A stretch of 64,000 bases of DNA from positions 1 through 64,000 of the forward strand of contig JBBDQU010000084.1 in NCBI GenBank assembly GCA_040905865.1, given 5' to 3'. The position numbers and the translations under genes are program-made. The notes under the pieces are model-generated. The model was not told where the DNA came from and made no database searches. It saw nothing but the letters and a program-made list of their open reading frames with translations. Every line of letters starts with the position of its first letter. Positions within the stretch are counted from its first letter, which is position 1. Positions 9,183 to 32,558 of the stretch are shown here, in pieces. The stretch comes from Alphaproteobacteria bacterium. GTDB taxonomy: Bacteria > Pseudomonadota > Alphaproteobacteria > UBA8366 > GCA-2717185.

Positions 9183-9183
9183 T

Positions 9184-10602
9184 ATGGGAAAGATTACCGG
9201 CTTTCTCGAAATTGACCGCCAGGACCGGAAGTATGCGCCGGCCGCCGATCGTATTCGGCATTTTAAGGAGTTCGTTCTCCCCGTCGACCCGGCCCAGATT
9301 GCGCAGCAGGGTGCGCGCTGTATGGATTGCGGCATTCCCTTTTGCCAACAGGGCTGCCCGGTAAACAATATCATTCCGGACTGGAATGATCTGGTGTACC
9401 GGGACGAATGGTATGAAGCGCTGGACGTCCTGCATTCCACCAATAATTTTCCGGAATTCACGGGACGTATCTGCCCCGCGCCCTGCGAGGAAGCCTGTAC
9501 ACTGAATATCGACAATAACCCCGTCACCATCAAGTCCATCGAATGCGCGATCGTAGACAGGGGTTGGGATGACAATGTCATCGTCCCGGTCGTTCCCGAA
9601 ACCAGAACCGGCAAGAAAATTGCCATTGTCGGATCCGGGCCGGCAGGACTGGCCGCGGCGCAGCAGCTTGCGAGAGTCGGCCACGATGTCGTTGTCTTCG
9701 AAAAAAATGCCAAGTCCGGTGGGCTCTTACGCTACGGAATTCCCGATTTCAAGATGGAAAAGCACCAGATCGACCGCCGCATCGTGCAGATGGAAGCCGA
9801 AGGCGTCGAATTCCGCAACAATTGCCACATCGGTGTCGATATGCCGGCAAAAGACCTCATGGCCGAATACGACGCCGTCATTCTTGCCGGTGGCAGCGAA
9901 ACGCCACGGGATCTGAATGTGCCGGGCCGGGATCTTGAAGGCGTGGAATTCGCCATGGATTTCCTGCCGCAACAAAACCGCCGCGTAAGCGGCGAACCCC
10001 TGGGTCAGGTCGAGGAAATTTCCGCCAAGGGCAAGAATGTCGTCGTCATCGGCGGCGGCGATACCGGCTCCGATTGTATCGGAACGGCGTTCCGGCAGGG
10101 CGCCATTTCCGTGACCCAGTACGAAATCATGCCGATGCCGCCCGAAGAACCCGACAAAGGCACGACCTGGCCCAACTGGCCGCAAAAGCTGCGAACGTCG
10201 TCATCCCAGGCGGAAGGCGCCGTGCGGGACTGGTGTGTCTCCACATCCAAACTCACCGGCCGTAACGGCAAGGTCGATACGCTGCACGCCGTGCGCCTCG
10301 ATGAGAAACTGAAGGAAATTCCGGGGACTGGCTTTACCGTCAAGGCAGACCTTGTCCTGCTGGCCATGGGATTCGTTCACCCGACCCACGAAGGGATGCT
10401 TCAGGAACTGGGCGTGGAACTGAACCAGTTCGGCAACGTCCAGGCAAACACGGATGACTATCGGACGTCCCTGCCAAAGGTCTTTGCAACGGGCGACATG
10501 CGGCGCGGCCAGTCGCTGGTTGTCTGGGCGATCCGGGAAGGTCGCCAGTGCGCCCGCGCGGTGGACGAGTTTCTCATGGGTGCGACCACGCTGCCGCGAT
10601 AG
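9184..10602 (+). CDS. gltD: Glutamate synthase (NADPH) small subunit
   Basis: The 472-residue beta subunit of GOGAT passes electrons from NADPH through FAD to the large subunit. Cys46, Cys49, Cys54 and Cys58, and then Cys97, Cys101 and Cys105, are in the N-terminal region that holds the [4Fe-4S] clusters. [15 protein letters not shown] near residue 147 is the FAD dinucleotide fold, and [16 protein letters not shown] near 280 is the NADPH fold. GAGGGAG ahead of the ATG at 9184 overlaps the end of gltB, so the two are translationally coupled. A longer open frame from 9154 is excluded by this ribosome-binding site. Confidence 0.97.
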
Positions 10603-10625
10603 CGGAAAACAACAGGAATTATCGG

Positions 10626-11285
10626 ATGTCACGGATATCGTTAATACACGCCACACCGCTGGCAATAGCCCCGGTTGTCGCCGCCTTCCGGGACGAATGG
10701 CCTGACGCATCCGTGTTCAATTTCCTGGAGGATTCCCTGACGACAGATCTGAAGTCGGTTGGATCGATCGACGATTCAATCGTGCAGCGTTTCCATGCGC
10801 TGGCGCGCTACGCGACGGAAACGGGCGCCGACGGGATACTGTTCACCTGTTCGGCCTTTGGCGCGGCGATTGAGTCCGTTGCCGAAAAACATCCCTTCCT
10901 GCCGGTGCTCAAACCGAACGAGGCGATGTTCGAGGAAGCGCTCGAACGGGGCAACCGGATCGCGATGATCGCGACATTCGAACCAAGCGTACCGTCCATG
11001 CAGCGGGAATTCGAGGCAATGGCGCAGCGGATAAACCCGAAAGCGACACTTGAAACCGCCTGCGTGCCGCGGGCGATGGATGCGCTGGCGAGCGGTGACA
11101 CGGAAACCCATAACCAACTGATTGCGGCGGCGGCGAAAGAATTCGCGGACCGGGACGTTCTCATGCTGGCGCAGTTTTCCATGGCTTCGGCCCGCGCGAA
11201 TGTCATGGAAAATGTCTCCATACCTGTCCTGACCAGCCCGATGAGCGCTGTACGGAAACTGCGTCTGATGCTCGGCGCGTCATAA
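10626..11285 (+). CDS. Aspartate/glutamate racemase-family protein lacking the second Cys
   Basis: The 219-residue protein has the two-domain Asp/Glu racemase fold: [20 protein letters not shown] at the N terminus, [12 protein letters not shown] with Cys75 at the usual first catalytic cysteine, and a second half [13 protein letters not shown] in which the expected Gly-Cys-Thr of the second catalytic cysteine is Ala182-Gln183-Phe184. Two-base racemisation therefore looks unlikely; decarboxylase, isomerase or one-base chemistry are options in this superfamily. The substrate is unknown. It starts 23 bases after gltD and is 29 bases before the SDR gene, so a shared transcript is plausible. Confidence 0.82.
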
Positions 11286-11314
11286 CAGAAACGACGACAA
11301 GCAACGGAGACGTT

Positions 11315-12097
11315 ATGGTTGATCTGCGTGGAGAACTCGAAGGCAAGGTCGCGATTGTCACAGGAAGCGCGCGGAATATCGGTCGCGCGACCGCAGAGGA
11401 ACTGGCCCATGCGGGCGCCGCAATGGTCATCAACGCCGTACAGGCAAAGGATTTGTGCGAGGAGGTTGCCGAGGGCATCAGGGCGAAGGGCGGCAGGGCA
11501 ATCCCGTTTCTGGCGGATGTCCGCGATCCCGATGCCGTAAACGCCATGGCGGCAGCCGCCATCAAGGAATTCGGCGGCATAGACATCATGGTGCACAACG
11601 CCGCCGTACGCAGCAACATATCCTTCGAGGACATGGCCTGGGAAACGTTCCACGCCAGCGTCGATCTCTCCATCAATGGCTGTTTCCATCTCGCAAAGGC
11701 CGTCCTTCCCTCGATGAAGCAGCGGGGCGGCGGCAGCATTATCGGCGTGGGCGGCATGTCGTCTTTACGCGGTTCGGCGGGGCGGTCCCATGTCATGGCG
11801 GGGAAGATGGGCCTGAACGCTTTCATCCGTGGCCTGGCGCTCGACCTGGCAAAGTATAATATTCGCGCCAATCAGGTTGTTGTCGGCAATTTCGACACGG
11901 TTCGGGAAGGTAATCCTTCCTCGGCTTCCGCCGCAACGATCGAGGCAATGCGCAAGGCGGAAGGCGCAATTCCGCTGGGGCGGCTAGGCCAGCCACAGGA
12001 CATGGCGAATCTGATCCGGTTCATTGTCGGGCCCGGCGCGGAATACATGACCGGACAGACGCTGCACTCCAACGGCGGCGCCTATATGAACCTTTAG
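11315..12097 (+). CDS. SDR-family protein with substituted catalytic Ser and Tyr
   Basis: The 260-residue protein is a classical-length short-chain dehydrogenase/reductase: KVAIVTGSARNIGRATAEEL forms the nucleotide-binding fold, DIMVHNAAV matches NNAG, and Asn121 and Lys164 are retained. At the positions of the catalytic Ser and Tyr, however, the sequence reads Gly147 (IIGVGGMSS) and Val160 (HVMAGKMG). The reading is clear in the DNA and the rest of the protein is intact, so this is not a frameshift. A ribosome-binding site (CGGAGACGTT) precedes the ATG. Likely roles are a binding protein or an SDR with different chemistry; a 3-oxoacyl-ACP reductase label would be unsafe. Confidence 0.87.
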   Translation: MVDLRGELEGKVAIVTGSARNIGRATAEELAHAGAAMVINAVQAKDLCEEVAEGIRAKGGRAIPFLADVRDPDAVNAMAAAAIKEFGGIDIMVHNAAVRSNISFEDMAWETFHASVDLSINGCFHLAKAVLPSMKQRGGGSIIGVGGMSSLRGSAGRSHVMAGKMGLNAFIRGLALDLAKYNIRANQVVVGNFDTVREGNPSSASAATIEAMRKAEGAIPLGRLGQPQDMANLIRFIVGPGAEYMTGQTLHSNGGAYMNL

Positions 12098-12119
12098 ACC
12101 GCCCGTTTCATGCGCGCCT

Positions 12120-12148
12120 GCGGGCGGGAAATTGCCCGCATTTTCTTT
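12120..12148 (+). terminator. Probable intrinsic terminator after the SDR gene
   Basis: GCGGGC at 12120-12125 pairs with GCCCGC at 12134-12139 across an eight-base loop and is followed by the T-rich run ATTTTCTTT. It lies about 20 bases after the SDR stop codon and would end the gltBD/racemase/SDR transcript. Confidence 0.6.
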
Positions 12149-12362
12149 GCAGAACCGTTCGAAATACCGGATGTACTGTCTGCCGTGCTGGGGCTCATCA
12201 AGTTGACAGTTCACTATGGATACGCAAGCATCATTGCCTTGGATGCGAGCAGGTCTAAGATAAAATGGCATGATCGCAGAATACCGGGACGTGAAAAGCT
12301 CATGCCCGTAACATAGAATGCCAAGACCAAGTAGTTTGGTCGTTCAGAACGGGAGGAAGACA

Positions 12363-17952: not shown

Positions 17953-19128
17953 TCAGATAACGCCTTCCTCGGACAGCGCGGCGATTTCGCTTTCTTCCAT
18001 GCCAAGCCAGTCCGCGAAAACCGAACTGTTATCCTGGCCGATTTCCGGAAAAAATTCGAGGTCACTGGAGTCGTATTCCGACAACCGGATCGGCGACGTC
18101 GGCAGGACGATCTCGCCCAGTTCGGGATGGGTGCGGTTCACCAGCATGCCGCGTGCGTGCATATGCGGGTCATTACGCACATCGGCAATATTCCGGATTG
18201 GCGCAACGGGTATCTTGGCATCCCGCATTTTGCCGAATGCTTCGTCGCGGCTATGGACCTTGGTCCAGGCTTCGATCATTTCGTTTATTTCGGCTTCCCG
18301 ATCGTGCCGCTTGAAATTTCCTTCGTAGTCCGGGTCCCCCCTCAGATCCTCGCGTCCGATAACCTGCAGGACCCGGTCCCAATGCGTTTCCGCGACGCAC
18401 ATCATGGCGATCCAGCCATCGCTGCAGCGGTATCGTCCATAGGGTGTGGTGATGGAGGGCGTCTTGTCGCCCCGGCGCGGCGACAGTTTTCCGGTATTAT
18501 GGTAGGCGGTGAATTCGCTGCTGAGGGTGAAATACATCGCTTCTATCATCGCGGTTTCCACCAGTGTCCCCTTGCCTGTTGCATGACGGCCGAACAGCGC
18601 CTGCAACACGCCGGCATACATGTGGATCCCTCCCATGATGTCTATCGGCGTACCGCCCGCCCGCGCCGGCGGACCGCCCGCTTCACCGGTGATACTCATC
18701 AGACCGCAGGCCGCCTGGATGGTGTGATCCATGGCAAGCTGGTCCCGGTCCGGTCCGGACAGTCCATAACCCGTGGCGGATGCATAAATCAGCCGCGGAT
18801 TGATTTCCCGCATGACCGACCAGCCCAGACCCAGCCGATCCATCGTTCCCGGGGCAAAATTCTCCAGCAGGACATCGGCCTTCCTTGCCATATCCTTCAG
18901 GATTTCCTTGCCGCGCGGCGTCTTCAGGTCGATCGTCACGCTCTTCTTGTTGGAATTGAGCATCGCGAATGCCATCGGCGTCTTTTCGCCCTGCCGCCGG
19001 ATCCTGTCGCCGTCATGCGGTTCCACCTTGACCACCTCGGCGCCGGCCATGGCCATCAGGAACGCCGCATAGGGGCCCTGGTAAATCTGGGTCAGGTCCA
19101 GGACCCGGATACCGCTCAATGCCTGCAT
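17953..19128 (-). CDS. Class III CoA-transferase (CaiB/BaiF family)
   Basis: The 391-residue protein carries the family III signatures GIRVLDLTQIYQGPYAAFLM, VLLENFAPGTMDRLGLGW and NPRLIYASATGYG. Asp163 in GGTPIDIMGG is at the position of the catalytic aspartate that forms the acyl-CoA intermediate anhydride. These cytosolic enzymes move CoA between a thioester donor and a carboxylic acid such as formate, carnitine, mesaconate or benzylsuccinate; the acid here is unknown. It is the last gene of a minus-strand operon, 21 bases after the class I CoA-transferase beta gene, which ties it to the molybdoenzyme upstream. Confidence 0.92.
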   Translation of the reverse strand: MQALSGIRVLDLTQIYQGPYAAFLMAMAGAEVVKVEPHDGDRIRRQGEKTPMAFAMLNSNKKSVTIDLKTPRGKEILKDMARKADVLLENFAPGTMDRLGLGWSVMREINPRLIYASATGYGLSGPDRDQLAMDHTIQAACGLMSITGEAGGPPARAGGTPIDIMGGIHMYAGVLQALFGRHATGKGTLVETAMIEAMYFTLSSEFTAYHNTGKLSPRRGDKTPSITTPYGRYRCSDGWIAMMCVAETHWDRVLQVIGREDLRGDPDYEGNFKRHDREAEINEMIEAWTKVHSRDEAFGKMRDAKIPVAPIRNIADVRNDPHMHARGMLVNRTHPELGEIVLPTSPIRLSEYDSSDLEFFPEIGQDNSSVFADWLGMEESEIAALSEEGVI

Positions 19129-19149
19129 GATGTCCGGTCCATTTCCCGA

Positions 19150-19821
19150 CTAAAGCGCCGGCACGTCAAGAACGCGGCAATCCGGCGCGAAGGAAAGCGG
19201 CGCTGCCGTCAGTTCCTGCAGGCCGTCCCGGGACAGGCCTTCGATGATTTCGTGGACCAGAAAACCGCCAGGCGTCACCTCGACAACAGCATGATCGGTA
19301 TAGATCCAGTCGACGACGCCAATCCCGGTTTCAGGATAGCTGCATTTTTCCACCAGCCGGGGTTCACCGTCGCGCGTCACATGCGCCATGACGACCCAGA
19401 CCGATTTTGCGCCGACCGCCAGGTCCATCGCGCCGCCGACAAGTGGGCCCTTGTTGGGAATCATGGCGTCCCAGTTTGCAAGGTTGCCGCTCGACGAAAC
19501 CTGAAAGCCGCCGAGAAGGGTAACGTCGATATGGCCGCCGCGGATCATGGCGAAAGCCATCGCCGAATCGACCAGGGAAGCGCCTTCGCGCAATGTGATT
19601 TTCTGGCTCCCCGCATCGACAAAATCCAGATCTTCTTTTCCCGGTTCGGCAACGGGACCGACGCCGACAATGCCGTTTTCGGATTGAAAAATGATGTCAG
19701 CATCCTTGGGTGCATAATTGGCCGCGAGAACCGGCATGCCCATGCCGAGATTCACATACCAGCCTTCGCGGAGGCCCTGCGCGGCGCGCCAGGCAATCTG
19801 GTTTCTGTTCAATGGTGTCAT
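19150..19821 (-). CDS. Class I CoA-transferase, subunit B (3-oxoacid type)
   Basis: The 223-residue protein is the beta subunit of an alpha/beta class I CoA-transferase. YVNLGMGMPVLAANY and FQSENGIVGVGP contain the conserved Ser-Glu-Asn-Gly motif whose Glu is the covalent catalytic residue; GGHIDVTLLGGFQVS and GPLVGGAMDLAVGAKSVWVV are further family motifs. It resembles 3-oxoacid and 3-oxoadipate transferases (ScoB/PcaJ), but there are no beta-ketoadipate genes nearby to support the latter. TGGAG precedes the ATG, and it begins 17 bases after the subunit A stop codon. Confidence 0.92.
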   Translation of the reverse strand: MTPLNRNQIAWRAAQGLREGWYVNLGMGMPVLAANYAPKDADIIFQSENGIVGVGPVAEPGKEDLDFVDAGSQKITLREGASLVDSAMAFAMIRGGHIDVTLLGGFQVSSSGNLANWDAMIPNKGPLVGGAMDLAVGAKSVWVVMAHVTRDGEPRLVEKCSYPETGIGVVDWIYTDHAVVEVTPGGFLVHEIIEGLSRDGLQELTAAPLSFAPDCRVLDVPAL

Positions 19822-19838
19822 TATTTTCTCCAGAATTC

Positions 19839-20513
19839 CTAGCGTCCGTCCGGCAACTGGATAACGCGGTTAACGAAGATACCCGATATATCCGCGCCGT
19901 TCGGCGGCAGGGCCTCATCCTGCAGGCTCGTCACTTCAACCACCGAGGTTTTTGCCGCCATCGCCATGGAGGGGCCGAAATTCGCTTGCAGGCCCCGGAA
20001 GGCCACGTTGCCCCAACGGTCCGCGACATGGCCGCGCAACAGCGCGAAATCCGCCGTCAATGCCGTTTCCATCAGGCATTCCCGGCCATTGAACACGCGG
20101 GATTCCTTGCCTTCCGCCAGTTTCGTACCGACCCCTGTCGGCGTGTAGAACGCCGGAATTCCCGCGCCCCCGGCACGCAATCGCTCCGCAAAACTGCCCT
20201 GCGGCACCAGTTCCAGTGCCAGCGCGCCGCTTTGTATCTGTCGTTCGTAGATGCCCGGCTCCTTGCCCGGACTTCTGGCGGCGGAACAGATCGCCCTGGT
20301 GACCCGTTCATCGGAAAACAGCGATGGCGCCGTGTATTCGATGAAGCGAATACTGTTGAGGATCAGGGTCAGGTTGCGCGCACTGGTCCGTTCCAGCGCC
20401 CGCACCAGCGCAATAGGCAGTCCGGCCCCGCCAAATCCGCTCACCATGATGGAGCAGCCGTCGATCAACCCTTCCAACGCCTGTTCCACGGTCGCCACAC
20501 GCTTGTCTATCAT
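19839..20513 (-). CDS. Class I CoA-transferase, subunit A (3-oxoacid type)
   Basis: The 224-residue alpha subunit has the GSIMVSGFGGAGLP-like loop (CSIMVSGFGGAGLPIALVRA), which contacts CoA, and GGAGIPAFYTPTGVGTKLAE plus DFALLRGHVADRWGNVAFRG, both diagnostic. An upstream frame extension exists, but the ATG at 20513 (MIDKRVATVEQ) matches the usual family N terminus. It pairs with the gene at 19150. Position within an operon behind the molybdoenzyme suggests that the enzyme's substrate or product is a CoA-activated acid; this is inference. Confidence 0.9.
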   Translation of the reverse strand: MIDKRVATVEQALEGLIDGCSIMVSGFGGAGLPIALVRALERTSARNLTLILNSIRFIEYTAPSLFSDERVTRAICSAARSPGKEPGIYERQIQSGALALELVPQGSFAERLRAGGAGIPAFYTPTGVGTKLAEGKESRVFNGRECLMETALTADFALLRGHVADRWGNVAFRGLQANFGPSMAMAAKTSVVEVTSLQDEALPPNGADISGIFVNRVIQLPDGR

Positions 20514-20598
20514 CTGTTTTGTTCTGCCTCTGAAATTCAATCGCCCGCATGTTAGCGACCTTGACCGCGCGCAACCAATAGCCAATGCGCTATCGAAC

Positions 20599-23529
20599 TC
20601 AAATAGCCACCGGTTCTACCTTGCATAACAGCGTCTTCAGGTTGACCTGATCCGAAATGGCATCGCGCTGCATGCGGTCCGTCAGGAAGTTTACCGACTT
20701 CCAGGGATTATGCGGTTGCCGTTCGCCCCAGCCGATCGGTACATATGCCGCGCTCTTGCGGATACCCGGGGTCAGCCACGCGACCGCCTCAACCGAACCA
20801 TGCGCCGTGGTGACCCGAACGCGGTCGCCGTCAGCGATTTTCAATTCGCCGCCGCGTTCCGGATGCAGTTGAACATACATGTCCGCCCACATCTCCTGGG
20901 CCTGCCAGGCGTAATGGGTCCAGCTGTGGAAATGCGGGGCCGCCGCGCGGCCGGTGACGAGTTCCATATCAAAACCCTGATCGCGCAGCTTCGCGCCAGG
21001 CCCCGCCGCGTTCGTGCTGACAATTCTGGCAGTCGACGCGCCCGTCGCCGCGGCGAAGGGCGACAGCACCCCCATTTCGGCATCTGTCGCCAGAAGTTCC
21101 AGATACGGCAGGTCGATAAGCTGTTCCCGCTCGCTGAAGAATTCCGGCAGTATCGGCAGGCCGAGCTTCGCGAATTTCTCCGCCATTGGTTCTGTCCAGA
21201 ATTCCAGTCGTCCGCTTGGCGTCGGAAAGCGCTTTTCATTGCCGCGCAAGGATTCTTCCAGAAAGAGCGTCTCCAGTTCCGGCGAATCCGCGCGGGGCAG
21301 CGGATAGCGTCGCCAGCGGTATGGCGAGGCGCGCAACATATCCGTCGTGCAGCCGCGCAAATCGTCGCTGCGGGCGCACATGTGATCCCAGAATACAGCA
21401 GGCTCCTTGAATTCCTCTTTCAGGACGTCGTCGAAGCCGAACCGTTTGCCCAATTCGACCCAGATCCACCCGTCCGATTTCGCCTCACCGGGCGGATCGA
21501 TCAGCTTTTCGTTCCAGACCACACGCCTGTCGTCATTGCCGCGATTGACGCCGCCCCGTTCGATCCCGGTCGCGACCGGCAGCAGATAATCCGCATAGGC
21601 CGATGTCTCGTTCTCATACAGATCCATGTGCACCACGAGATCCAGCGCCAGCATCGCCGCACGCGCATCGTCCTGGCCGGGCCAGTGCGACATAGGGTTA
21701 TTGCCCGCCAGCAGAGCCTTGATAGGATAGGGCTTGCCGTCGCGCATCGCGTCGATCCAGCCGGCTGGGTTGCGCCGGACCATCGGCTTTTCAACCGGCG
21801 CACGGCGACTTTCCGGCAGTTCCGGGCTCATCGACGACCCGGACGCCATATTGAAAAAGCCGCCGCCGCGCCGCGCCCAGTTCCCTGTACAGGCCGCCAG
21901 AAACATGAACACCCGATTTGTCTGCACCCCATTGCTATGCTGGTTCAGTCCCCGGCTGCCGAAGATCATGCAGCCATCCGCCGCCGCGATATCCTCCGCC
22001 AGTTGCCTGATATCCGCCGCGGGAATATCGGTAATTTCCGCCGCCCATTCCGGCGTATAGCCGCGCTCCAAGATGTAATCGCGCCAGCGTTCCCATCCTT
22101 CGATCCAGCGCGCACAGAAATCGCTGTCATGCAGTTCGTTGCTGAAAATATGATGGATCAGGGCCAGGCCGAGCGCCATGTCGGTGCCGGAACGAATACC
22201 GAGCCATTTATCCGACTTGCTCGCCGTGACCGTAAACCGGGGGTCGACGGTCACCATCCTGGCGCCGTTCCTTATCCGCCAGTCATTGACCATGCCGAAA
22301 TAGACCGGCCGCGTTTCCGCCTGATTGTCGCCAATGAACAGGTACATGCCGGCGCTGCCGATATCATCCGGCGTATAGCTGTTGGGAATCAGCACCACGC
22401 CCTGCGTCAGTGAATAGGCAATCGCCTTGCCGGAAGAGCAGAGCGCTTCGGTGCTGCCGGCGTTCGGCGTCCCCCATAATTTTGCAAACAGCGGAACATA
22501 GGCTCGGGATGTCATCACCCCGGACCGCGTTCCCGCAAACAGCGCAACGGCCTCCGTCCCCCATTCCTCGCGGATCGCCCGCATCTTTTCGGCAATTTCG
22601 TCCAGCGCCTGTTCCCAGCTGATCCGTTCGAATCGCGATTCCCCGCGCGCGCCAACCCGCTTCTGCGGATACATCAGCCGGCCCGGATCGTTATAAATCT
22701 GCAGGGTCATCTGCGATTTCGGGCAAATTCGCCCCGCGAGCACGGGATCCTTGTCGTTCCCGGTTATCCTGACCAGCTTGTCGCCCTTGAAATGGTAATT
22801 CAGCGAACAGGCGTTGAAGCAGATATTGCAGCCGCCGGGTTCGACGCGATCCGCCGCCCGTGCATCCGCCGTCTCGCCATAGGGAAATTCCGTATCCGCC
22901 GGCCGCGCCGCGCCCTGCCAGGTCCCCGGCAGAGTCATCGCAACGGTTTGCAGCGTTGTTTCCCGCGTGCGCAGCGGCTCCAGATAGACTGTCCCCGGCC
23001 CCAGCAGATAATCGTCCGTATCGCGGATTATTCGCCCCGCCGCCCGGGCTTCGGCAACCAGCGTATCGCGTTCGCCAAAGCGAATCGCCATGCCCGGACA
23101 TACCGAGGCGCAGGCTGTCGTCTCGCCTTCCCCGCGATACGATACGCACAGGTCGCATTTCACGGCATGATGATCGGCGGCATCGAACCCCATCGCACCA
23201 TACGGACAGGCCAGAACGCATTCACCGCATCCCGTGCACCGGTCGTCATCCAGGCTGACGATACCGCTGACCGGGTCCTTGCCAATCGCTTTCGGACTGA
23301 CGGGGCAGGCCCGCAGACAGGCGGGGCGTTCGCAGTGCTGGCACATGGTCGGCAGGAATTCCAGTGCGGCAGCGTCCGTCCCCTGCAACCAGACGACCTT
23401 GTTCCGGTTCACAGAAGGGCCCAGGCCATGGGCCTGCTTGCAGGCGGCTTCGCAACTCTTGCAGCCGGTGCAGCGCTCCAGGTCGATCAGCAGCGCGAGC
23501 CGCCCCGGATTTTCGTCAAGTTCAGCCAT
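20599..23529 (-). CDS. Fused four-cluster ferredoxin / molybdopterin oxidoreductase
   Basis: The 976-residue protein joins two subunits usually encoded apart. Residues 1-150 are a DmsB/PadC-like electron-transfer domain with four cysteine quartets (Cys20-30, 63-75, 98-108 and 125-144). From about 230, a DMSO-reductase-family catalytic domain begins with Cys234, Cys237, Cys241 and Cys269 for a further [4Fe-4S] cluster; Cys364 in STEALCSSGKAIAYS is the likely Mo/W ligand. The C-terminal molybdopterin-binding barrel is complete. There is no Tat signal, so it should face the cytoplasm. The start at 23529 adjoins the stop codon of the membrane subunit. Its nearest named analogues may be PadBC phenylacetyl-CoA oxidoreductase or thiosulfate/DMSO reductases; the substrate is unknown. 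Confidence 0.93.
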   Translation of the reverse strand: MAELDENPGRLALLIDLERCTGCKSCEAACKQAHGLGPSVNRNKVVWLQGTDAAALEFLPTMCQHCERPACLRACPVSPKAIGKDPVSGIVSLDDDRCTGCGECVLACPYGAMGFDAADHHAVKCDLCVSYRGEGETTACASVCPGMAIRFGERDTLVAEARAAGRIIRDTDDYLLGPGTVYLEPLRTRETTLQTVAMTLPGTWQGAARPADTEFPYGETADARAADRVEPGGCNICFNACSLNYHFKGDKLVRITGNDKDPVLAGRICPKSQMTLQIYNDPGRLMYPQKRVGARGESRFERISWEQALDEIAEKMRAIREEWGTEAVALFAGTRSGVMTSRAYVPLFAKLWGTPNAGSTEALCSSGKAIAYSLTQGVVLIPNSYTPDDIGSAGMYLFIGDNQAETRPVYFGMVNDWRIRNGARMVTVDPRFTVTASKSDKWLGIRSGTDMALGLALIHHIFSNELHDSDFCARWIEGWERWRDYILERGYTPEWAAEITDIPAADIRQLAEDIAAADGCMIFGSRGLNQHSNGVQTNRVFMFLAACTGNWARRGGGFFNMASGSSMSPELPESRRAPVEKPMVRRNPAGWIDAMRDGKPYPIKALLAGNNPMSHWPGQDDARAAMLALDLVVHMDLYENETSAYADYLLPVATGIERGGVNRGNDDRRVVWNEKLIDPPGEAKSDGWIWVELGKRFGFDDVLKEEFKEPAVFWDHMCARSDDLRGCTTDMLRASPYRWRRYPLPRADSPELETLFLEESLRGNEKRFPTPSGRLEFWTEPMAEKFAKLGLPILPEFFSEREQLIDLPYLELLATDAEMGVLSPFAAATGASTARIVSTNAAGPGAKLRDQGFDMELVTGRAAAPHFHSWTHYAWQAQEMWADMYVQLHPERGGELKIADGDRVRVTTAHGSVEAVAWLTPGIRKSAAYVPIGWGERQPHNPWKSVNFLTDRMQRDAISDQVNLKTLLCKVEPVAI

Positions 23530-23531
23530 TG

Positions 23532-24314
23532 TCACCCGCCCCATGCGGCAAGATGCCACCAGGTTATCGGGCCGCCATCGGCGACATATCCAGCGAAAAA
23601 CGTCACCGTGATCACATGAACCGCGATGCCGCCGATCAATAGTCCGGCCGCGAGCAAGTGCAGCCGCCGCCAGTTGCCTAGGTCGCGCCCGACCGTACCG
23701 CGCGCCCCGACGGCTATCGCTTCACGATGCGACAGCCGGACATAAGCGAAGGTCAAAAAAGGGTGCCGAAACCAATGGGAACGGTTCGGTGAAAACAGCG
23801 CTTCATCGGCTGCGGGATCGAGCTGTTTCAACAGTTTCGTTTTCGCGTCGAGAATGCGGCGCAGCGCCACCTTGTCGACGGGACGTTCGGCGCGCAGTGC
23901 CGAACTGCGCGAGGCCATGACACGCGCCAGTTTTGCCGACCCGATGCTCCGCGCCCAGGCGCCCTGAATAATCAGGAAATAGACAAGCAGGACCAGTATT
24001 GCCGGCGGCCGCGTCCAGCCGCCGGCGCCGTGAATCGTCACCAGAACGGCGCCGGAAACGCCCGCCACGATATGGGCAACCAGCCATCGACGCGGCATGA
24101 CGGCATTGCCGCCGCGTTTCACGAAGGCATATGCCGCTGGCACAAACAGCATTGCCGCACCGGCGACACCCACCCAGTAAAGCCCGACGCTGCCGGCCGT
24201 CTGCCAGGCCGACGCCAGAAAAGGCTGCCCGGCATAAATCACCGCGATGAACAGCACTGTACAACCTACCGCCAAGACAGACCGTTGCCCGGCCCAACCG
24301 CTCAACATCCTCAA
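23532..24314 (-). CDS. Membrane subunit with two His pairs, likely di-heme cytochrome b-like anchor
   Basis: The 260-residue integral membrane protein has about five hydrophobic segments (roughly residues 12-28, 44-63, 78-95, 105-120 and 217-242) and a basic cytoplasmic loop of about 90 residues. His81/His95 and His219/His233 form two pairs, each 14 residues apart within a helix, the spacing expected of b-type heme ligands; heme binding is inferred. It is encoded first in the operon and ends just before the start of the molybdoenzyme, so it probably anchors that enzyme and exchanges electrons with quinones. I cannot assign it to a named family. Confidence 0.75.
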   Translation of the reverse strand: MRMLSGWAGQRSVLAVGCTVLFIAVIYAGQPFLASAWQTAGSVGLYWVGVAGAAMLFVPAAYAFVKRGGNAVMPRRWLVAHIVAGVSGAVLVTIHGAGGWTRPPAILVLLVYFLIIQGAWARSIGSAKLARVMASRSSALRAERPVDKVALRRILDAKTKLLKQLDPAADEALFSPNRSHWFRHPFLTFAYVRLSHREAIAVGARGTVGRDLGNWRRLHLLAAGLLIGGIAVHVITVTFFAGYVADGGPITWWHLAAWGG

Positions 24315-24527: not shown

Positions 24528-25589
24528 ATGAAAAAAGTAAAGATCCTCAGCATTATACGGCTGAACGACAGCGACAAGAGAAAGATCGAGGCAGTCGATC
24601 CCGCCGTGGAACTGGTTGACGCCGGCGGCTGGTTCGATGGGGAATACCGGGAAACCTGGTCCCGATACGCCACAAGCCGCTATGTCGCTAATGGCTCCAA
24701 CGGAAAGGGTACCCGCGCGGAACGCGACGCCTTGCTGGCGGATGCGGAAATTATTCTGGCGAGCTTTCCCTTCCCTTTCGATATCCGGTCCCGTTCACCA
24801 AAGCTGAAATGGCTGCACCAGCGCCCCGCCGGCGCCAGCAATCTGCTCGATTGCGACCTGTGGGGCAGCGACGTGACGGTGACAACGTCCCGCGGCCTCG
24901 CCAATGCGGAGCCGATTGCCGAGTGGGCCATTGCCGGCATGATGTATTTCGCCAGGGATTTCAATCATGCCGAGGCGGACCGCGCCTCCGGAAACTTCGA
25001 ATTCGCCAAGTACCGGGGGCGCATGATCCGGGGCAAGACCGCCTGCGTTATCGGCGCCGGGGGTATCGGCCGCGAAGTCGGGCGGCTTTGCCATGCGCTC
25101 GGGATGAATGTCGTCGGCACGAAACGAACGGCTCCCGCCGCGGGAGAACGGCTTGCGGACGGATTTTCGGCACTCCATCCCGCCAGCGACTTGCATGAAC
25201 TGCTCGCCCAAAGCGAGTTTGTCTTTGTCTGTTGTCACTGGACACCGGAAACCACAAACCTGCTGGACGCCGAAGCCTTTGCCGCCATGAAACCCGATAC
25301 CACACTCGTCAATGTGGCGCGGGGTGAAATCATCGACGAGAACGCGATGCTGGACGCCTTGGATTCAGGTCATTTGCGCGGCGCGGCGCTGGATGTTTAC
25401 GTTGGCGAATTCGAAGGATTACCGTCGGACCGAATGTGGAAGCATCCCAGGGTTCTCATCACGCCCCATGTTTCGAACGCCACCGACGTCAATATGCACA
25501 AGGGCATCGACCTGTTTTGCGAATATCTTGACGATTACCTGAAGGGGCGGCCGCTGCGTAATGTCATCGACTGGGAGCGCACTTACTGA
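24528..25589 (+). CDS. D-2-hydroxyacid dehydrogenase family protein
   Basis: The 353-residue NAD(P)-dependent enzyme has the nucleotide fold CVIGAGGIGREVGRL near residue 170, the substrate-binding Arg in NVARGEIIDENAML and the catalytic His in ITPHVSN near the C terminus. The catalytic domain is split around it in the usual way. Members reduce 2-oxoacids such as hydroxypyruvate, glyoxylate or branched ketoacids; specificity is not visible. It is followed 68 bases later by a second family member on the same strand, so the two may act on related substrates. Confidence 0.92.
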   Translation: MKKVKILSIIRLNDSDKRKIEAVDPAVELVDAGGWFDGEYRETWSRYATSRYVANGSNGKGTRAERDALLADAEIILASFPFPFDIRSRSPKLKWLHQRPAGASNLLDCDLWGSDVTVTTSRGLANAEPIAEWAIAGMMYFARDFNHAEADRASGNFEFAKYRGRMIRGKTACVIGAGGIGREVGRLCHALGMNVVGTKRTAPAAGERLADGFSALHPASDLHELLAQSEFVFVCCHWTPETTNLLDAEAFAAMKPDTTLVNVARGEIIDENAMLDALDSGHLRGAALDVYVGEFEGLPSDRMWKHPRVLITPHVSNATDVNMHKGIDLFCEYLDDYLKGRPLRNVIDWERTY

Positions 25590-25657
25590 CTTGCGTCTGT
25601 TTCCGAATTACTGAGACTGGAAAAAAGCCGGACTGCATTATTCAGGACCAATGCATC

Positions 25658-26608
25658 ATGCGTATCGCCGTTATCAACGATTACAAGAACCTGGCGCGGG
25701 ACAGCGCCGACTGGAGCCAGCTGGCGTCCAGTCATTCCGTTGATTTCTATACCGATTTCCTTGCCAGCGGCGCCCCCGCCGCGGCGCGCCTCGCCCCCTA
25801 TGACGTCGTCGTCGCCGCACGGGAAGAAACCCGGTTCGACCGGGCGCTTGTCGAACAGTTGCCCAATCTCAAGCTCCTGGTGACCCACGCAACGCGCAAT
25901 GCCGCGTTCGACATGGCGGCGCTTGCAGAACACGGCGTCACGGTCTGCGGCACCGGATACGGCTTCGCCAACGCCACCGTTGAACTGGCATGGGGGCTGA
26001 TCCTGTCCCTATTCAAGCGGATCCCGGCGGAAGATCGCGGCATCCGCGACGGTGAATGGGGCGTCGACCTGCCGCTTGGCCTCACCGGCAAAACGCTGGG
26101 CGTCCTGGGCCTTGGCGACCTGGGATCGGGCGTTGCGGCGGTCGGAAAGGCGCTTCAGATGAACGTGATTGCGTGGAGCCAGAACCTTACCGATGCGCGC
26201 TGTAATGAAATCGGCGTCAGCCGGGTATCACGGGAGGATCTGTTTCGACAATCGGATGTCGTCAGCATCCATCTTGTACTCGGGCCGCGCTACCGCGGCC
26301 TTATCGGCGCGCCGGAACTGGCCATGATGAAACCGACCGCCTATCTGATCAACACCTCGCGCGGCCCCATCGTGGATGAAACCGCGCTCGTCGAAGCCCT
26401 GAAAACCGGGGTTATCGCAGGGGCCGGCCTGGACGTCTTCGATGAAGAGCCCCTGCCCGACAATCACCCGCTTCGCAGCGTGCCGAATACGGTCCTGACG
26501 CCACATCTTGGCGGACGCACAAAGGAAAACTTCGCCGCCCGCTACCATGATTGCCTGGAAAATGTCATGGCCTGGCTGGACGGCAATCCGATCCGGGTCA
26601 TGACCTGA
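25658..26608 (+). CDS. D-2-hydroxyacid dehydrogenase, D-3-phosphoglycerate-dehydrogenase-like
   Basis: The 316-residue protein has LTGKTLGVLGLGDLGSGVAA (NAD-binding GxGxxG near residue 147), the Arg motif LINTSRGPIVDETALVEAL, the Glu segment DVFDEEPLPDNHPL and the catalytic His in VLTPHLGG. It shares the fold with the preceding gene but is clearly diverged from it, with a shorter N-terminal region. Substrate unknown. Its end is eight bases from the convergent cupin gene. Confidence 0.92.
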   Translation: MRIAVINDYKNLARDSADWSQLASSHSVDFYTDFLASGAPAAARLAPYDVVVAAREETRFDRALVEQLPNLKLLVTHATRNAAFDMAALAEHGVTVCGTGYGFANATVELAWGLILSLFKRIPAEDRGIRDGEWGVDLPLGLTGKTLGVLGLGDLGSGVAAVGKALQMNVIAWSQNLTDARCNEIGVSRVSREDLFRQSDVVSIHLVLGPRYRGLIGAPELAMMKPTAYLINTSRGPIVDETALVEALKTGVIAGAGLDVFDEEPLPDNHPLRSVPNTVLTPHLGGRTKENFAARYHDCLENVMAWLDGNPIRVMT

Positions 26609-26615
26609 CGACCGT

Positions 26616-27182
26616 TCAGGCGGCCTTGCGTTTCCGCCGGGGGCAGGGCTTGACGGTTTTCGTTTCCGGGTCGAATTCCGAGCGCGCCGTATGGGCCAGG
26701 CTCCTGCCATAGATATGCAGTGACAGGGTCGTTGTGTCGCCGTCATTGCGCACGCTGTGAATGTCGTCCGGCATGAAAACCGCGATGTCGCCCGGCTCGA
26801 CGACTACTTCGTGGTTCGCATGGATGTCGGCAAAACCCGGCTTCGACCCGTCATCGCGGCGCAACCAGTTCACGTTGGTTTCCCGCCCGTCCAGTCCGAC
26901 CACGATTCCCCATGTCTGATGATCATGCGGTTTCACGCCGCGTCCGGGCAGCCAGGCGATCACTTCGACCAGCAAAGTATGGTCGGATTCCTCATGCAGG
27001 ATTGTGATGCCGAATCCCTGTTCCTCGCTGCATTCATAGTATTCAGGCTTTATCCAGTCCCTGTCGTCCTTCAATCGGCCGGCCAGCGGCGCCGCTTTCC
27101 GGAGAACCGCCCGGGGATCATCATGGGCCGCGACGATTTCCCTGAGATCCCTGACCAGGGCGGCGATTGAATAGGCAGGCAA
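26616..27182 (-). CDS. Cysteine dioxygenase-type thiol dioxygenase (cupin)
   Basis: The 188-residue product matches bacterial cysteine/3-mercaptopropionate dioxygenases: His86 and His88 in KPHDHQTWGIVVGLDG and His142 in DDIHSV would bind Fe(II), and Tyr158 in LHIYGRSL is at the position of the active-site tyrosine. Such enzymes add O2 to a thiol to make a sulfinate. The frame is open to an ATG at 27260, but GGAGGG at about 27187-27192 lies six bases before a TTG at 27182, and homologues usually begin at this LPAYS segment. I take TTG as the start. A taurine/sulfite-type exporter gene (56019) is far away and need not be related. Confidence 0.83.
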   Translation of the reverse strand: MPAYSIAALVRDLREIVAAHDDPRAVLRKAAPLAGRLKDDRDWIKPEYYECSEEQGFGITILHEESDHTLLVEVIAWLPGRGVKPHDHQTWGIVVGLDGRETNVNWLRRDDGSKPGFADIHANHEVVVEPGDIAVFMPDDIHSVRNDGDTTTLSLHIYGRSLAHTARSEFDPETKTVKPCPRRKRKAA

Positions 27183-27294
27183 GGCATTCCCTCCATTCAG
27201 AACTGGGTTGTCGGGGCACTCGTGCCGCAGTCGCTTCGTCGAGCGCAAAGCGTCTGTCAATCGGCATCTCCGGCCTGCGGCAGCGAAGCAACAG

Positions 27295-27332: not shown

Positions 27333-28070
27333 CTATTTCAGGTTTCGGTCGAACAGGGCAAAAATCTTGCCCCAGGCACCTTCAGACTCTACCGGATTAT
27401 AGACCGCCCGCTGGGCAAACATGTAGCCGTGATGGGTACCTTTCGGCCGCTCCAGAATATACTTTGCGGAACTTGCCTTCAGCGCCTTCACGAATGCCTC
27501 GTATTCCTCCTCCGGCACGCTCTGGTCAACTTCCGCGAAGGAATAGAACAGTTCGCCCGCAGTATCGTTCAGCAGCCTGTGCGGCGAATCTTCGGCATCC
27601 GTCACCATCTTCACGCTGTACAGCGACGCGCCGCAGGCGATTCGTGTCGGATACCGCGCCGCCGCGGCCGTGACGTGCTGGCCGCTCATGCAATGCCCGA
27701 CAGCGCCGACCTTTCCCGGCGATGCCTTGGCCTGCGCGTCGATAAAGGCAAGAACCGCACCGGTATCTTCCACAACCCGCTGGATCGTCAGATGGTTCAT
27801 CGAAGCGCGGATAACGCCCGACATGCCGTCATCGCGGCGCGGCAGATTGAAGCGCACCGTCCCCAGCCGGTAATACATGTCGAAAATGACGCAGAAATAG
27901 CCCTGCTTCGCAATACGGCGAACATGGTTGAGCAGTTCCTCGCGATAACCTGGCGCATCCATGTAGAATATAATTGCCGGAAAATGCCCCGGTTCGTCCG
28001 GAACGGCGGTAAAGCCCGGCGCCTCGCCGAATTGCGTTGGAATGGTAACATGCTGTTCGATTAGTGCCAT
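27333..28070 (-). CDS. Dienelactone hydrolase family protein
   Basis: The 245-residue alpha/beta hydrolase has a cysteine nucleophile elbow, GAVGHCMSGQH (Cys127), with Asp182 in SFAEVDQSVP and His213/His214 in KGTHHGYMF completing a DLH triad. Dienelactone hydrolases open lactones in chlorocatechol breakdown, but most homologues have other or unknown ester substrates. AGGGGAG precedes the ATG. It lies 44 bases after the downstream end of the next alpha/beta hydrolase gene on the same strand, suggesting a small operon. Confidence 0.9.
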   Translation of the reverse strand: MALIEQHVTIPTQFGEAPGFTAVPDEPGHFPAIIFYMDAPGYREELLNHVRRIAKQGYFCVIFDMYYRLGTVRFNLPRRDDGMSGVIRASMNHLTIQRVVEDTGAVLAFIDAQAKASPGKVGAVGHCMSGQHVTAAAARYPTRIACGASLYSVKMVTDAEDSPHRLLNDTAGELFYSFAEVDQSVPEEEYEAFVKALKASSAKYILERPKGTHHGYMFAQRAVYNPVESEGAWGKIFALFDRNLK

Positions 28071-28114: not shown

Positions 28115-28900
28115 TCAGGCTTCTGTCAGAAATGGCAGCACGGTCTCAAGCCACAGTTCCGGCGTCTGAACCGCCATGAAATGGCCGGACTCCGTTTCAA
28201 CATATCGGGCGCCCGGAATGGCGCGGGCGATCGGTTCGATCATCGCGGGCGGGCGCAGCAGGTCATGCCTGGCGGAAATTACCAGCGTCGGACAGGTAAT
28301 TTTGCCGTAGTCACCGGTCATATCCATATCAGCCAGCATCCGGTTGATCGCGGCAAAGCCGGACGGGTCATTCGCCAGCCAGCGCAACCGGTAGAGTTCG
28401 TAGCGCTCGCGGTTTCCACGCAATACTTCGGGATAGGACCGGTCGAGACTGGATTGCACCTGCGCACGCATGCCGTCGCGCTCGACTGCGTCCGCCCGCT
28501 CCAGAACCTGGGCACACCTGTCCTTCGAAACTCCTGTGGCGGGACTGCTGATCGCCAGTTTACTCACCCGTGCGGGGAACCGCGCGGCAAAGCCGAGAGC
28601 AATCGCGGCGCCGAGCGCCAACCCCGTGACATGGCAGGGCGCCGAAATCCCCAAACCATCCAGCAGGGCCGCGAGATCGTCCGCCATCGTATCCAGCGCC
28701 AGTGTCCCCTTGGCCTTCTCGGACAGCCCGAAACCACGCTGGTCATAACGCAATACGCGAAATTGCTTTTGCAATTCAGGAAGCACGTCGTCCCAGCTTT
28801 CGAGTGCGCCACCGAGCTCGTGAATCAGCACGAGCGTCTCGCTGCCCTGTCCGCTAAGCTCGTAGCGCAGGCTGACTCCGTTCACCTCAATCCACTTCAT
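28115..28900 (-). CDS. Alpha/beta hydrolase-fold protein with Ser-to-Ala nucleophile position
   Basis: The 261-residue protein resembles 3-oxoadipate enol-lactonases: LVLIHELGGALESWDDVL, LRYDQRGFGLSE, and the late acid/His pair in VISARHDLLRPP (Asp213) and ETESGHFMAVQ (His240). At the nucleophile elbow, however, the expected G-x-S-x-G reads Gly93-Leu-Ala95-Leu-Gly97 (codon GCG). Asp and His are kept while Ser is lost, so ordinary ester hydrolysis is doubtful. The start at 28900 (MKWIEVNGVSLRYE) is the usual family N terminus; a longer frame upstream overlaps the fhs control region. Confidence 0.87.
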   Translation of the reverse strand: MKWIEVNGVSLRYELSGQGSETLVLIHELGGALESWDDVLPELQKQFRVLRYDQRGFGLSEKAKGTLALDTMADDLAALLDGLGISAPCHVTGLALGAAIALGFAARFPARVSKLAISSPATGVSKDRCAQVLERADAVERDGMRAQVQSSLDRSYPEVLRGNRERYELYRLRWLANDPSGFAAINRMLADMDMTGDYGKITCPTLVISARHDLLRPPAMIEPIARAIPGARYVETESGHFMAVQTPELWLETVLPFLTEA

Positions 28901-29138
28901 CGAATCCCCCCAAACTCCGAAAATAGCCGTCATTTTCTGCACAGGATAAGAAATCGCGTTCACTGCGCGGTCACGCGTGATATTAACCCGGCAACGGCTT
29001 TTGGAAACAACGCAGATACCCTTGGCGATACCGTAACGCAAAATTATTTGGTAAAGTACTCGGAAATCGTCAAAATCAAGCAAACAACCAGCGAGCGTGC
29101 CGCCCGGTGCGCTAAACATCCACAAAGGAGGGGACGGA

Positions 29139-30815
29139 ATGGCTCCCAAGAGCGATATAGAAATTGCGCGTGAAGCAAAAATGCTGCCGATTCAGGAAAT
29201 CGGCAAGCGCCTTGGGATACCAGATGATGACCTCTTCCGTTACGGCCCCTACAAGGCCAAAGTCTCCTTTGATTACATCAACACTCTGAAGGACAAGCCC
29301 GACGGCAAGCTGATTCTCGTCACCGCCATCACACCGACGCCGGCGGGCGAAGGCAAGACCACGACCTCGGTCGGACTTGCCGACGGCCTGAATCGTATCG
29401 GTAAGAAAACCATTGTCTGCCTGCGCGAACCGAGCCTCGGCCCCTGTTTTGGGATGAAGGGCGGCGCCGCGGGCGGCGGCTACGCCCAGGTCGTCCCGAT
29501 GGAAGACATCAATCTGCATTTCACCGGCGACCTTCATGCCATCGGCACCGCCCACAACCTGCTGTCGGCGCTGATTGACAACCACATCTATTGGGGCAAC
29601 GAACTGGGCATCGACGCACGGCGCATCACATGGCGGCGCGTCATGGATATGAACGAGCGCGCGCTGCGTGACGTTGTCACCTCGCTGGGTGGGGTCGCCA
29701 ACGGTTTCCCGCGCCAGACCGGTTTCGACATCACCGTCGCATCCGAAGTCATGGCCATCTTCTGTCTCGCCCTGAACCTGAAGGATCTGCAGGAGCGGCT
29801 GTCCAGGATCGTCATCGGATACACCGGCGACCGGAAGCCGATATTCGCCAAAGACGTGCATGGACAGGGTCCGATGACGACGCTGCTCAAAGACGCGCTG
29901 ATGCCGAACCTGGTGCAAACGCTGGAAAACAATCCGGCCTTTATCCATGGCGGTCCGTTCGCGAATATCGCCCATGGCTGCAATACGGTCCTGGCAACCA
30001 CGACCGCCCTGAAACTGGCGGACTACGTCGTCACCGAAGCCGGTTTCGGCGCCGACCTTGGGGCCGAAAAGTTTTTCGATATCAAATGCCGCAAGGCGGG
30101 CCTGAAGCCGGCGGCGGCCGTCATCGTGGCGACCGTTCGCGCCCTGAAGATGCATGGCGGCGTTGCCCGGGCGGACCTCAACACCGAAAATACCGACGCG
30201 GTCCGCAAAGGTCTGGAAAATCTTGGCCGGCATGTGAGCAACGTTCAGAAGTTCGGTGTTCCCGCGATTGTCGGCATCAACCAGTTCATCGCCGATACGG
30301 ACGCGGAAATGGACGTCGTCATGGAGTACTGCAAGTCGCTGGGCGTCGAGTGTTTCGTGAACTCCCACTGGGCCGACGGTGGCAAGGGTACGGAAGCGAT
30401 CGCCGCCAAAGTTGCCGAGATTGCCGAAGGCGGTTCAGCCAGTTTCAAGCCCCTGTACAGCGCGGAACTGCCGCTGTGGGAGAAGATCCGCACAATTGTG
30501 AAGGATATTTACGGCGCCGATGACGCAACGGCTGATTCCGCGGTACTGAACCAGATTGCGCAGTATGAAAAGGAAGGTTACGGCAACTTCCCGGTCTGTA
30601 TGGCGAAGACGCAGTACAGTTTCTCGTCCAATCCGGACCTGAAAGGCGCGCCGTCCGGGTTCACCGTTCCCGTCCGCGAGGTACGGCTTTCCGCCGGGGC
30701 CGAATTCCTGGTCGCGATCTGCGGATCGATCATGACAATGCCCGGTTTGCCGCGCGTCCCCGCCGCGAACAGTATCTATGTGAACGACAATGGCGATATA
30801 GAAGGCCTGTTCTAA
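29139..30815 (+). CDS. fhs: Formate--tetrahydrofolate ligase
   Basis: The 558-residue enzyme makes 10-formyl-THF from formate, ATP and tetrahydrofolate. Residues 66-74 (PTPAGEGKT) form the P-loop, and [20 protein letters not shown] and [19 protein letters not shown] are diagnostic. Length is normal. AAAGGAGGGG is six bases before the ATG at 29139. It is followed in the same direction by formate dehydrogenase genes, so formate can be either assimilated into one-carbon units or oxidised to CO2; this pairing is the clearest functional link in the window. Confidence 0.98.
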
Positions 30816-30846
30816 GCCTGTTTCCCCTCTAGATCAGTAAACAGGC
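30816..30846 (+). repeat. Inverted repeat between fhs and formate dehydrogenase genes
   Basis: GCCTGTTT (30816-30823) and AAACAGGC (30839-30846) form an eight-base stem with a 15-base loop, filling most of the 36-base gap between the fhs stop codon and the next start. It could modulate readthrough or the initiation of the downstream gene. Confidence 0.4.
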
Positions 30847-30851
30847 GGAGT

Positions 30852-32558
30852 ATGATGACAGATACGGTATCAACAATAAGAAAACGGCAACATCCCGGGC
30901 GCGGTCGCGGTAAAACCAGATTGCACCCGAAAGGCCGGCAGGTCGATCCCGCGGTGCAGGACGAAGTTCGATCGCTGCTCGCGGGACGACCACGGGACCG
31001 CGACCTCCTCATCGAATACCTGCACCTGATCCAGGATTCGCAGGGCTGTCTGCCCTCGGCCCATCTCGTCGCGCTGGCCAGCGAGATGAACCTGCCGATG
31101 GCCGAAGTGTATGAGGTTGCGTCTTTTTACGCGCATTTCGATATCGTACAGGATGACGAAACGCGGCCCTCGGAAATCACCATCCGGGTTTGCGACAGCC
31201 TGACCTGTGAATTGTTGGGCGCGCAGGCGCTTCTCGAGACGCTTGGCGATAAATACGCCGGGTCGGTCCGGGTTGTCCCCGCGCCGTGCATGGGGCGTTG
31301 CGACAGCGCCCCGGTCGCGGAAGTCGGTCACAACCATGTTGTCAATGCAACGCCTGAATCGGTCGACGCGGTCGTAACCGCCCGCCATTTTCATCCCGCT
31401 ATGCCGGCGTATCGCAATTTCGAAGCCTATTGCGCCGACGGCGGATACGCCCTGCTGCGGGCCTGTCTGGACGGGCAGCGTACCGTCGAAAGTGTTCTGG
31501 CAACAATGGACGATTCAGGTCTGCGGGGTATGGGCGGCGCCGGATTCCCAACCGGACGCAAATGGCAGTTTGTCCGCGCCGGCGCGAAACCGCGCTATCT
31601 CACCGTAAATGGCGACGAAGGCGAGCCAGGCACCTTCAAGGACCGCCACTACCTGGAAACGGACCCGCACCGATTTCTGGAAGGCATGCTCATCGCGGCC
31701 TGGGCTGTCGAAGCGGATCGAAGCTACATCTATCTGCGCGACGAATATCCGCAGATCCGCGCACTGCTTTTGGCGGAGTTGCCGAAACTGGCCGCCGCCG
31801 GCCTGGCGCCCGAGGGCTTCGTTGAACTTCGCCGTGGCGCAGGCGCCTATATCTGCGGCGAAGAATCCGCGATGATCGAAAGTATCGAAGGCAAGCGCGG
31901 CCTTCCCCGCCATCGCCCGCCCTATGTCGCGCAGGTCGGCCTTTTCGGCCGTCCGACACTGGTCAACAATATCGAAACCCTGTTCTGGATTCGGGATATC
32001 CTGGAAAAGGGGCCTGGCTGGTTTGCCGACCACGGCCGCAACGGCGGCAAAGGCATGCGCAGCTTTTCGGTTTCCGGCAGGGTCGCGCAGCCGGGCGTGA
32101 AGCTGGCGCCGGCGGGCATTACCGTTCGCGAACTGATCGACGAATATTGCGGCGGCATGGCGGAAGGGCATACGTTCAAGGCCTACCTGCCCGGCGGCGC
32201 CTCAGGCGGTATACTGCCCGCGGCAAAGGGTGACCTGCCACTCGAATTCGGCAAGCTGGAATCCGAAGGCTGCTTCGTCGGTTCGCATGCGGTTGTCATC
32301 CTGTCCGACAAGGACAATATGGGTGATGTGGCGCGAAACCTGATGCGGTTCTTTGAAGATGAAAGCTGCGGACAATGCACGCCGTGCCGCGTCGGTACCG
32401 AAAAGGTCGTGGCCCTGATGAATAATCCGAAGTGGGATGCGGGGCTGCTGAATGAAGTCGGCCGCGCCATGGCGGATGCCTCGATCTGCGGCCTGGGCCA
32501 GGCCGCCGCGAACCCCGTGTTTTCTGTCCTGAAGCATTTCCCCGAGGAAGTGATATGA
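30852..32558 (+). CDS. NAD-dependent formate dehydrogenase beta subunit (fused NuoE-NuoF type)
   Basis: The 568-residue protein fuses a NuoE/FdsG-like [2Fe-2S] domain (Cys114, Cys119, Cys146, Cys150) to a NuoF/FdsB-like domain. The latter has GLRGMGGAGFPTGRKWQFVR and NGDEGEPGTFKDRH for NADH/FMN, and Cys506, Cys509, Cys512 and Cys546 for a [4Fe-4S] cluster. It would carry electrons from the alpha subunit to NAD+. The same two-gene architecture is known from Methylobacterium FDH1, whose alpha subunit uses tungsten; whether this one uses W or Mo is unknown. It overlaps the alpha gene by four bases. Confidence 0.94.
   Translation: MMTDTVSTIRKRQHPGRGRGKTRLHPKGRQVDPAVQDEVRSLLAGRPRDRDLLIEYLHLIQDSQGCLPSAHLVALASEMNLPMAEVYEVASFYAHFDIVQDDETRPSEITIRVCDSLTCELLGAQALLETLGDKYAGSVRVVPAPCMGRCDSAPVAEVGHNHVVNATPESVDAVVTARHFHPAMPAYRNFEAYCADGGYALLRACLDGQRTVESVLATMDDSGLRGMGGAGFPTGRKWQFVRAGAKPRYLTVNGDEGEPGTFKDRHYLETDPHRFLEGMLIAAWAVEADRSYIYLRDEYPQIRALLLAELPKLAAAGLAPEGFVELRRGAGAYICGEESAMIESIEGKRGLPRHRPPYVAQVGLFGRPTLVNNIETLFWIRDILEKGPGWFADHGRNGGKGMRSFSVSGRVAQPGVKLAPAGITVRELIDEYCGGMAEGHTFKAYLPGGASGGILPAAKGDLPLEFGKLESEGCFVGSHAVVILSDKDNMGDVARNLMRFFEDESCGQCTPCRVGTEKVVALMNNPKWDAGLLNEVGRAMADASICGLGQAAANPVFSVLKHFPEEVI

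Follow-up and report, generated by a model that had tools for sequence, protein, structure and literature searches.

A probable two-gene respiratory module of a fused iron-sulfur/molybdenum protein and a putative di-heme membrane anchor in Alpha- and Betaproteobacteria

Two neighbouring genes in an alphaproteobacterial contig (JBBDQU010000084.1), coding for a membrane anchor and for a fused iron-sulfur/molybdenum (Fe-S/Mo) protein, probably constitute a two-gene respiratory module that is independent of the CoA-transferase genes next to them. The whole stretch of DNA that was analysed (64,000 nt) is called the window in the following. At 17953–24314 it carries five genes on the minus strand in the order anchor, fused Mo protein, class I CoA-transferase subunits A and B, and class III CoA-transferase. 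This order, with 85 bases as the largest gap, had been described by an earlier reading made from the sequence alone (the sequence-only reading), and it is borne out by the coordinates and by the starts assigned by codon scoring (24308, 23544, 20513, 19821 and 19128). The anchor gene extends into the start of the fused gene, and the remaining gaps comprise 85, 17 and 21 bases. The five genes, together with a cupin gene, are:

23532–24308, minus strand: membrane anchor, 258 aa, with five predicted transmembrane (TM) helices and an invariant His quartet
20599–23544, minus strand: fused Fe-S/Mo protein, 981 aa (986 aa from the GTG at 23559), assigned by domain matches
19839–20513, minus strand: class I (3-oxoacid type) CoA-transferase subunit A (PF01144, NCBIfam)
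19150–19821, minus strand: class I CoA-transferase subunit B (PF01144, NCBIfam, SENG motif with catalytic Glu)
17953–19128, minus strand: class III (CaiB/Frc family) CoA-transferase (PF02515)
26616–27260, minus strand: 3-His cupin with kinship to thiol dioxygenases; its gene lies on the same strand as the fused gene, four genes upstream of it

Co-transcription of the five genes is plausible yet unproven: the 85-base gap between the fused gene and the subunit A gene holds no terminator-like site, but scanning the region for promoters and terminators gave no excess over shuffled sequences. Two D-2-hydroxyacid dehydrogenase genes are located on the plus strand (24528–26608), divergent from the operon; at one related locus (L007) a TauD-family dioxygenase takes the place of one of them.

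The anchor and fused genes are adjacent at 25 of 25 loci and at 12 of 12 further ones, giving 37 of 37 informative loci from Alpha- and Betaproteobacteria, and the association of the two genes is therefore not due to chance. Of the co-occurrence of all five genes considered in the sequence-only reading, the part concerning this pair holds at every one of these loci, while the transferase genes lie beside it in a single genus: only two further genomes, both of the same genus, keep the order of the five genes (L006 and L007, 94% and 86% identity), and no CoA-transferase gene adjoins the pair outside this genus among the loci examined. Within the window's order, 13 of 43 genomes have a homologue of the fused protein; the figures are 6 of 14 for another alphaproteobacterial order, 2 of 136 for a third, 8 of 399 for Burkholderiales, 5 of 385 for a class-wide sample and 1 of 398 for a phylum-wide one. 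These counts take in the window genome or the sample's centre genome where it lies within the sample. The pair is rare and patchily distributed across Alpha- and Betaproteobacteria, and the carriers known here are mostly metagenome-assembled genomes; one isolate that has it is Pseudohalocynthiibacter aestuariivivens RR4-35, on plasmid pRR4-35_5. Two copies of the fused gene with differing neighbourhoods are present in each of two genomes (G423, G425; L065/L067, L063/L066). Assignment of 91 flanking proteins to Pfam yielded 112 families and no common neighbour theme; the commonest family outside the genus-specific transferases was seen three times.

The fused protein matches PF13247 in its N-terminal part, followed by PF04879, PF00384 and PF01568, these three in this order and above cut-off. 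Its first ~230 residues contain four Cys quartets and resemble a four-[4Fe-4S] ferredoxin of the PsrB/DmsB type, and the C-terminal part is a molybdopterin oxidoreductase with a [4Fe-4S] Cys quartet of its own. The domain set and alignment to solved homologues place the protein in the DMSO reductase (Mo-bisMGD) superfamily. All 34 fused proteins checked have the four-cluster N-terminal signature and carry the Fe-S and Mo parts on a single chain, and a twin-arginine motif was found in none of them, in agreement with the fused four-cluster ferredoxin/Mo protein lacking a Tat signal that had been noticed in the window. When the proteins are aligned with PsrA, a formate dehydrogenase and an acetylene hydratase, an invariant Cys occupies the Mo-ligand position. 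This Cys is followed by S, A, G or D in all members and never by His, whereas in formate dehydrogenases the Mo-ligand Cys or Sec is followed by a catalytic His. AlphaFold models of the two proteins of the pair, calculated from 12-sequence alignments, were too poor for use (pLDDT 61 and 40).

PhsA and Thermus PsrA rank among the NCBIfam and PDB entries that the Mo domain matches best in sequence, and the fused protein falls far below every cut-off of the NCBIfam models for characterised subfamilies. Membership in the PhsA family was rejected (293 bits versus a cut-off of 694, and a position outside the PhsA/PsrA clade in the tree), and DmsA, NapA, NasC, ArrA, BisC and TorA were rejected by scores far below the curated cut-offs. 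In a quick tree, 32 fused proteins formed one clade with a support of 100, set apart from PhsA/PsrA, formate dehydrogenases and NasA; the deeper order of this tree is unsure because several references were long-branched. Sister to the fused clade is an unfused Mo subunit from Burkholderiales (L085), and the next branch is a Tat-signalled Mo oxidoreductase on a Streptomyces plasmid (L086, 3854–6379), which lies inside an arsenic gene cluster and is possibly an arsenic redox enzyme. A close characterised homologue with an unrelated substrate, which the sequence-only reading had named as counter-evidence, was not found, the L085 protein being the nearest with 37% identity over the Mo domain. Like the Mo part of the fused protein it is accompanied by a four-cluster Fe-S unit, encoded by the adjacent gene, but it has a Tat signal, a separate Fe-S subunit and a NarJ/TorD-like chaperone gene, and no such anchor. 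Two sets of Mo, Fe-S and chaperone genes are present in the L085 region (1–12169), along with genes for a cytochrome c, a porin-like protein and MoaA. Matches on Burkholderia and Novosphingobium plasmids are unannotated and were read as nitrate-reductase-like. Our literature searches retrieved no description of a fused Fe-S/Mo family.

The anchor carries H81 and H95 in TM3 and H219 and H233 in TM5, each pair as H-x13-H. The quartet is invariant in 26 of 26 aligned homologues and kept in 12 of 12 further ones, so that the His pairs at 14-residue spacing pointed out earlier recur in all 38 proteins aligned or scanned. The counts of Lys plus Arg per loop (2.4/0.8/3.3/1.5/15.6/0.2) indicate, by the positive-inside rule, a topology with the N-terminus inside, the C-terminus outside and the large loop between TM4 and TM5 inside. 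This loop of ~95 residues is conserved, and its predicted cytoplasmic location indicates that it lies on the same side where the fused protein must be. No Pfam family matched the anchor above cut-off; among 12 members of the anchor family, 10 gave a weak match to DUF4405 (best 8.6e-6) and two a match to Ni_hydr_CYTB. No match of the anchor to NrfD/DmsC was obtained, and comparing its profile against PhsC and the whole set of PDB sequences yielded no match either. The anchor shows the spacing for bis-His heme ligation, with two helices contributing two His each. It fits two stacked b hemes and is likely a di-heme b quinone-reactive subunit. We infer the di-heme content from the His spacing, since solely weak DUF4405 and Ni_hydr_CYTB matches were found.

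Based on these features, the fused protein would be located at the cytoplasmic face of the inner membrane and would convert its substrate at the Cys-ligated Mo-bisMGD centre. Electrons would pass through five [4Fe-4S] clusters to the five-helix di-heme b anchor, which would exchange them with the quinone pool. The cytoplasm-facing, probably quinone-linked and b-heme-anchored oxidoreductase put forward by the sequence-only reading is thus supported at the sequence level by the lack of an export signal, the predicted topology, the His quartet and the strict pairing. Cofactor content, quinone coupling and electron direction of the module are what we infer from these data.

NarGHI consists of a cytoplasmic Mo catalytic part and a five-helix di-heme b anchor, and the module resembles it in both respects; it differs in that NarGHI has a separate Fe-S subunit and Asp as Mo ligand in NarG, where Cys occupies the ligand position here. 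PsrABC and PhsABC belong to the same superfamily, have Cys-ligated Mo and provide the best sequence matches among solved structures, and PhsC is, like the anchor, a cytochrome b subunit of ~255 aa. However, PhsA is Tat-signalled and stands apart in the tree, the Fe-S subunit of PhsABC is separate, and PhsC has no detectable homology to the anchor. In PadBCD the Mo, Fe-S and membrane subunits are separate. This system likewise is a membrane-bound Mo/Fe-S enzyme of three functional parts, with a CoA-linked neighbourhood as found here in one genus, but the Fe-S and Mo parts are fused here and pad pathway genes are absent. SoeABC combines a cytoplasmic, Cys-ligated Mo-bisMGD protein SoeA (PMC10100899) with a four-cluster Fe-S unit and a membrane quinone subunit (PMC8076601, PMC10100899), three traits that the module appears to share. 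SoeA and SoeB are separate proteins, in contrast to the single chain found here, and SoeC is an eight-helix heme-free protein of the NrfD type, unlike the five-helix anchor with its His quartet. Judged by predicted architecture, the module is neither an SoeABC nor a PadBCD complex, because its Fe-S and Mo parts are fused, and for SoeABC also since the anchor is not of the eight-helix SoeC type. Its layout would be most like that of SoeABC or NarGHI, with catalysis inside and electrons passed to or from quinone.

Our tentative best guess for the substrate is sulfite, or another sulfur oxyanion or a sulfinate, set free when organosulfur compounds are broken down oxidatively; the module would then do the work of Soe with a complex of different build. 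Oxidised sulfur is the best recurring theme in the neighbourhoods, which give weak hints and are too variable to settle the matter; in most of them the Pfam tally of the 91 flanking proteins revealed no sulfur gene. At four loci from one genus of a different family (L044, L045, L112 and L113) a cupin of the cysteine/mercaptopropionate dioxygenase type, a TauD-like protein, the anchor and the enzyme are encoded on one strand. The TauD-like protein of L045 lacks at least two residues (His, Asn) of the taurine site of E. coli TauD. The cupin of the window has its best solved structure in mercaptosuccinate dioxygenase (8vni, E 2.2e-20) with the three His ligands kept; a cupin of this type is near the pair also in L006 and L007, and it is a possible functional partner of the pair. 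A TauE/SafE gene directly follows the pair in two genomes of another lineage (L051 and L053); as proof of sulfite this adjacency was rejected as weak, because there are about 10 TauE genes per genome. An isolate plasmid (L005) carries a sulfate-exporter-like gene near the pair. For Variovorax paradoxus B4, it has been proposed that the sulfite formed after mercaptosuccinate dioxygenase is oxidised by a putative molybdopterin oxidoreductase (PMC5373536), a possible parallel. If sulfite oxidation is true, heterotrophs would have in this module a sulfite sink that has so far gone unrecognised.

There is a small chance that the proteins represent a new quinone-linked Mo family, which arose by the Fe-S/Mo fusion, the loss of export and the gain of a new di-heme anchor and has a new reaction that serves as a plug-in step of varied catabolic pathways. 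For example, a sulfinate or a sulfinyl- or acyl-CoA intermediate may be oxidised. Much of the sulfur, nitrogen and carbon cycles is driven by the DMSO reductase superfamily, in which an inward-facing Fe-S/Mo fusion paired with a heme anchor that Pfam does not cover would be a hitherto unrecorded architecture. A module of two genes is small enough for expression and testing.

The transferases next to the pair belong to the families assigned to them before. The class I subunits both match PF01144 and exceed the cut-offs of TIGR02428 and TIGR02429 (264 versus 243.6 and 217 versus 128.5 bits), and the SENG motif with the catalytic Glu can be read from the sequence of subunit B. The class III protein matches PF02515 (1.5e-117), stays below every NCBIfam equivalog cut-off and has YfdE as nearest solved structure. 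A second class III CoA-transferase gene, unlinked to the operon, is found at 57823–59040 on the plus strand. In a Pad-like oxidoreductase the transferases would activate an acid, the Mo centre would oxidise (e.g., alpha-hydroxylate) the acyl-CoA, and the electrons would be passed to quinone. We regard this as unlikely, although the five-gene order is shared by three genomes of the genus and the transferases look complete. Across the order, a ctfA orthologue is present in 11 of 13 genomes with the enzyme versus 3 of 30 without it (Fisher p 4e-6), a correlation confounded by phylogeny and by the incompleteness of several genomes; a functional link may exist all the same. In other lineages, further CoA-related genes adjoin the pair, namely a MaoC hotdog protein (L052, L058) and an NDP-forming CoA synthetase (L077, L079, L081, L082), and a thioesterase and a CaiB are near it in L043, but such scattered neighbours weigh little because CoA genes are common in these genomes. 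Besides the lack of adjacent transferases outside the genus, the ctfA orthologues (50–67%) are unlinked to the enzyme in most relatives that have it and mostly form a stand-alone ctfAB pair. In L099 ctfAB lies beside DLH and enol-lactonase genes, which are homologous to those at 27333–28070 and 28115–28963 of the window, and this context fits an ordinary 3-oxoacid transferase. The transferases were thus rejected as an integral part of the module as a general feature, and the CoA-ester substrate with transferases loading and unloading CoA, as suggested by the sequence-only reading, was not borne out. We propose that they form a 3-oxoacid CoA-transferase module of their own, which became a neighbour of the pair in a single genus and says little on the substrate.

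The opposite direction of electron flow is quite improbable; in this case the module would be a cytoplasmic enzyme that uses quinol to reduce a sulfur, selenium, N-oxide or S-oxide compound, in the manner of a Psr/Phs enzyme turned inward. The matches of the Mo domain to PhsA and PsrA would fit it, and in NarGHI and PhsABC quinol is oxidised at a di-heme b anchor. Against it stand the score below the PhsA cut-off, the tree position away from PhsA/PsrA, and the neighbours in L044, L045, L112 and L113, which belong to O2-dependent enzyme families and therefore point to aerobic catabolism.

A formate:quinone oxidoreductase matching the formate genes 5–11 kb away is very improbable, and this identity was rejected for the fused protein: the Cys-ligated Mo-bisMGD centre, a TIGR01591 match of 287 bits and the one-carbon genes at 29139–35323 would suit it, but the cut-off of this model is 666 bits, the His after the Mo-ligand Cys is missing in every member, the tree separates the fused clade from formate dehydrogenases and NasA, and an NAD-linked formate dehydrogenase is already encoded in the window. 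The genes at 29139–35323 (plus strand) code for a formate-THF ligase, followed by a NuoE/F-like fusion and the alpha subunit of the NAD-linked formate dehydrogenase. Elsewhere in the window, the genes at 51798–52661 (plus strand) and 53903–54766 (minus strand) share a similar N-terminal sequence and are apparently paralogues in opposite orientation.
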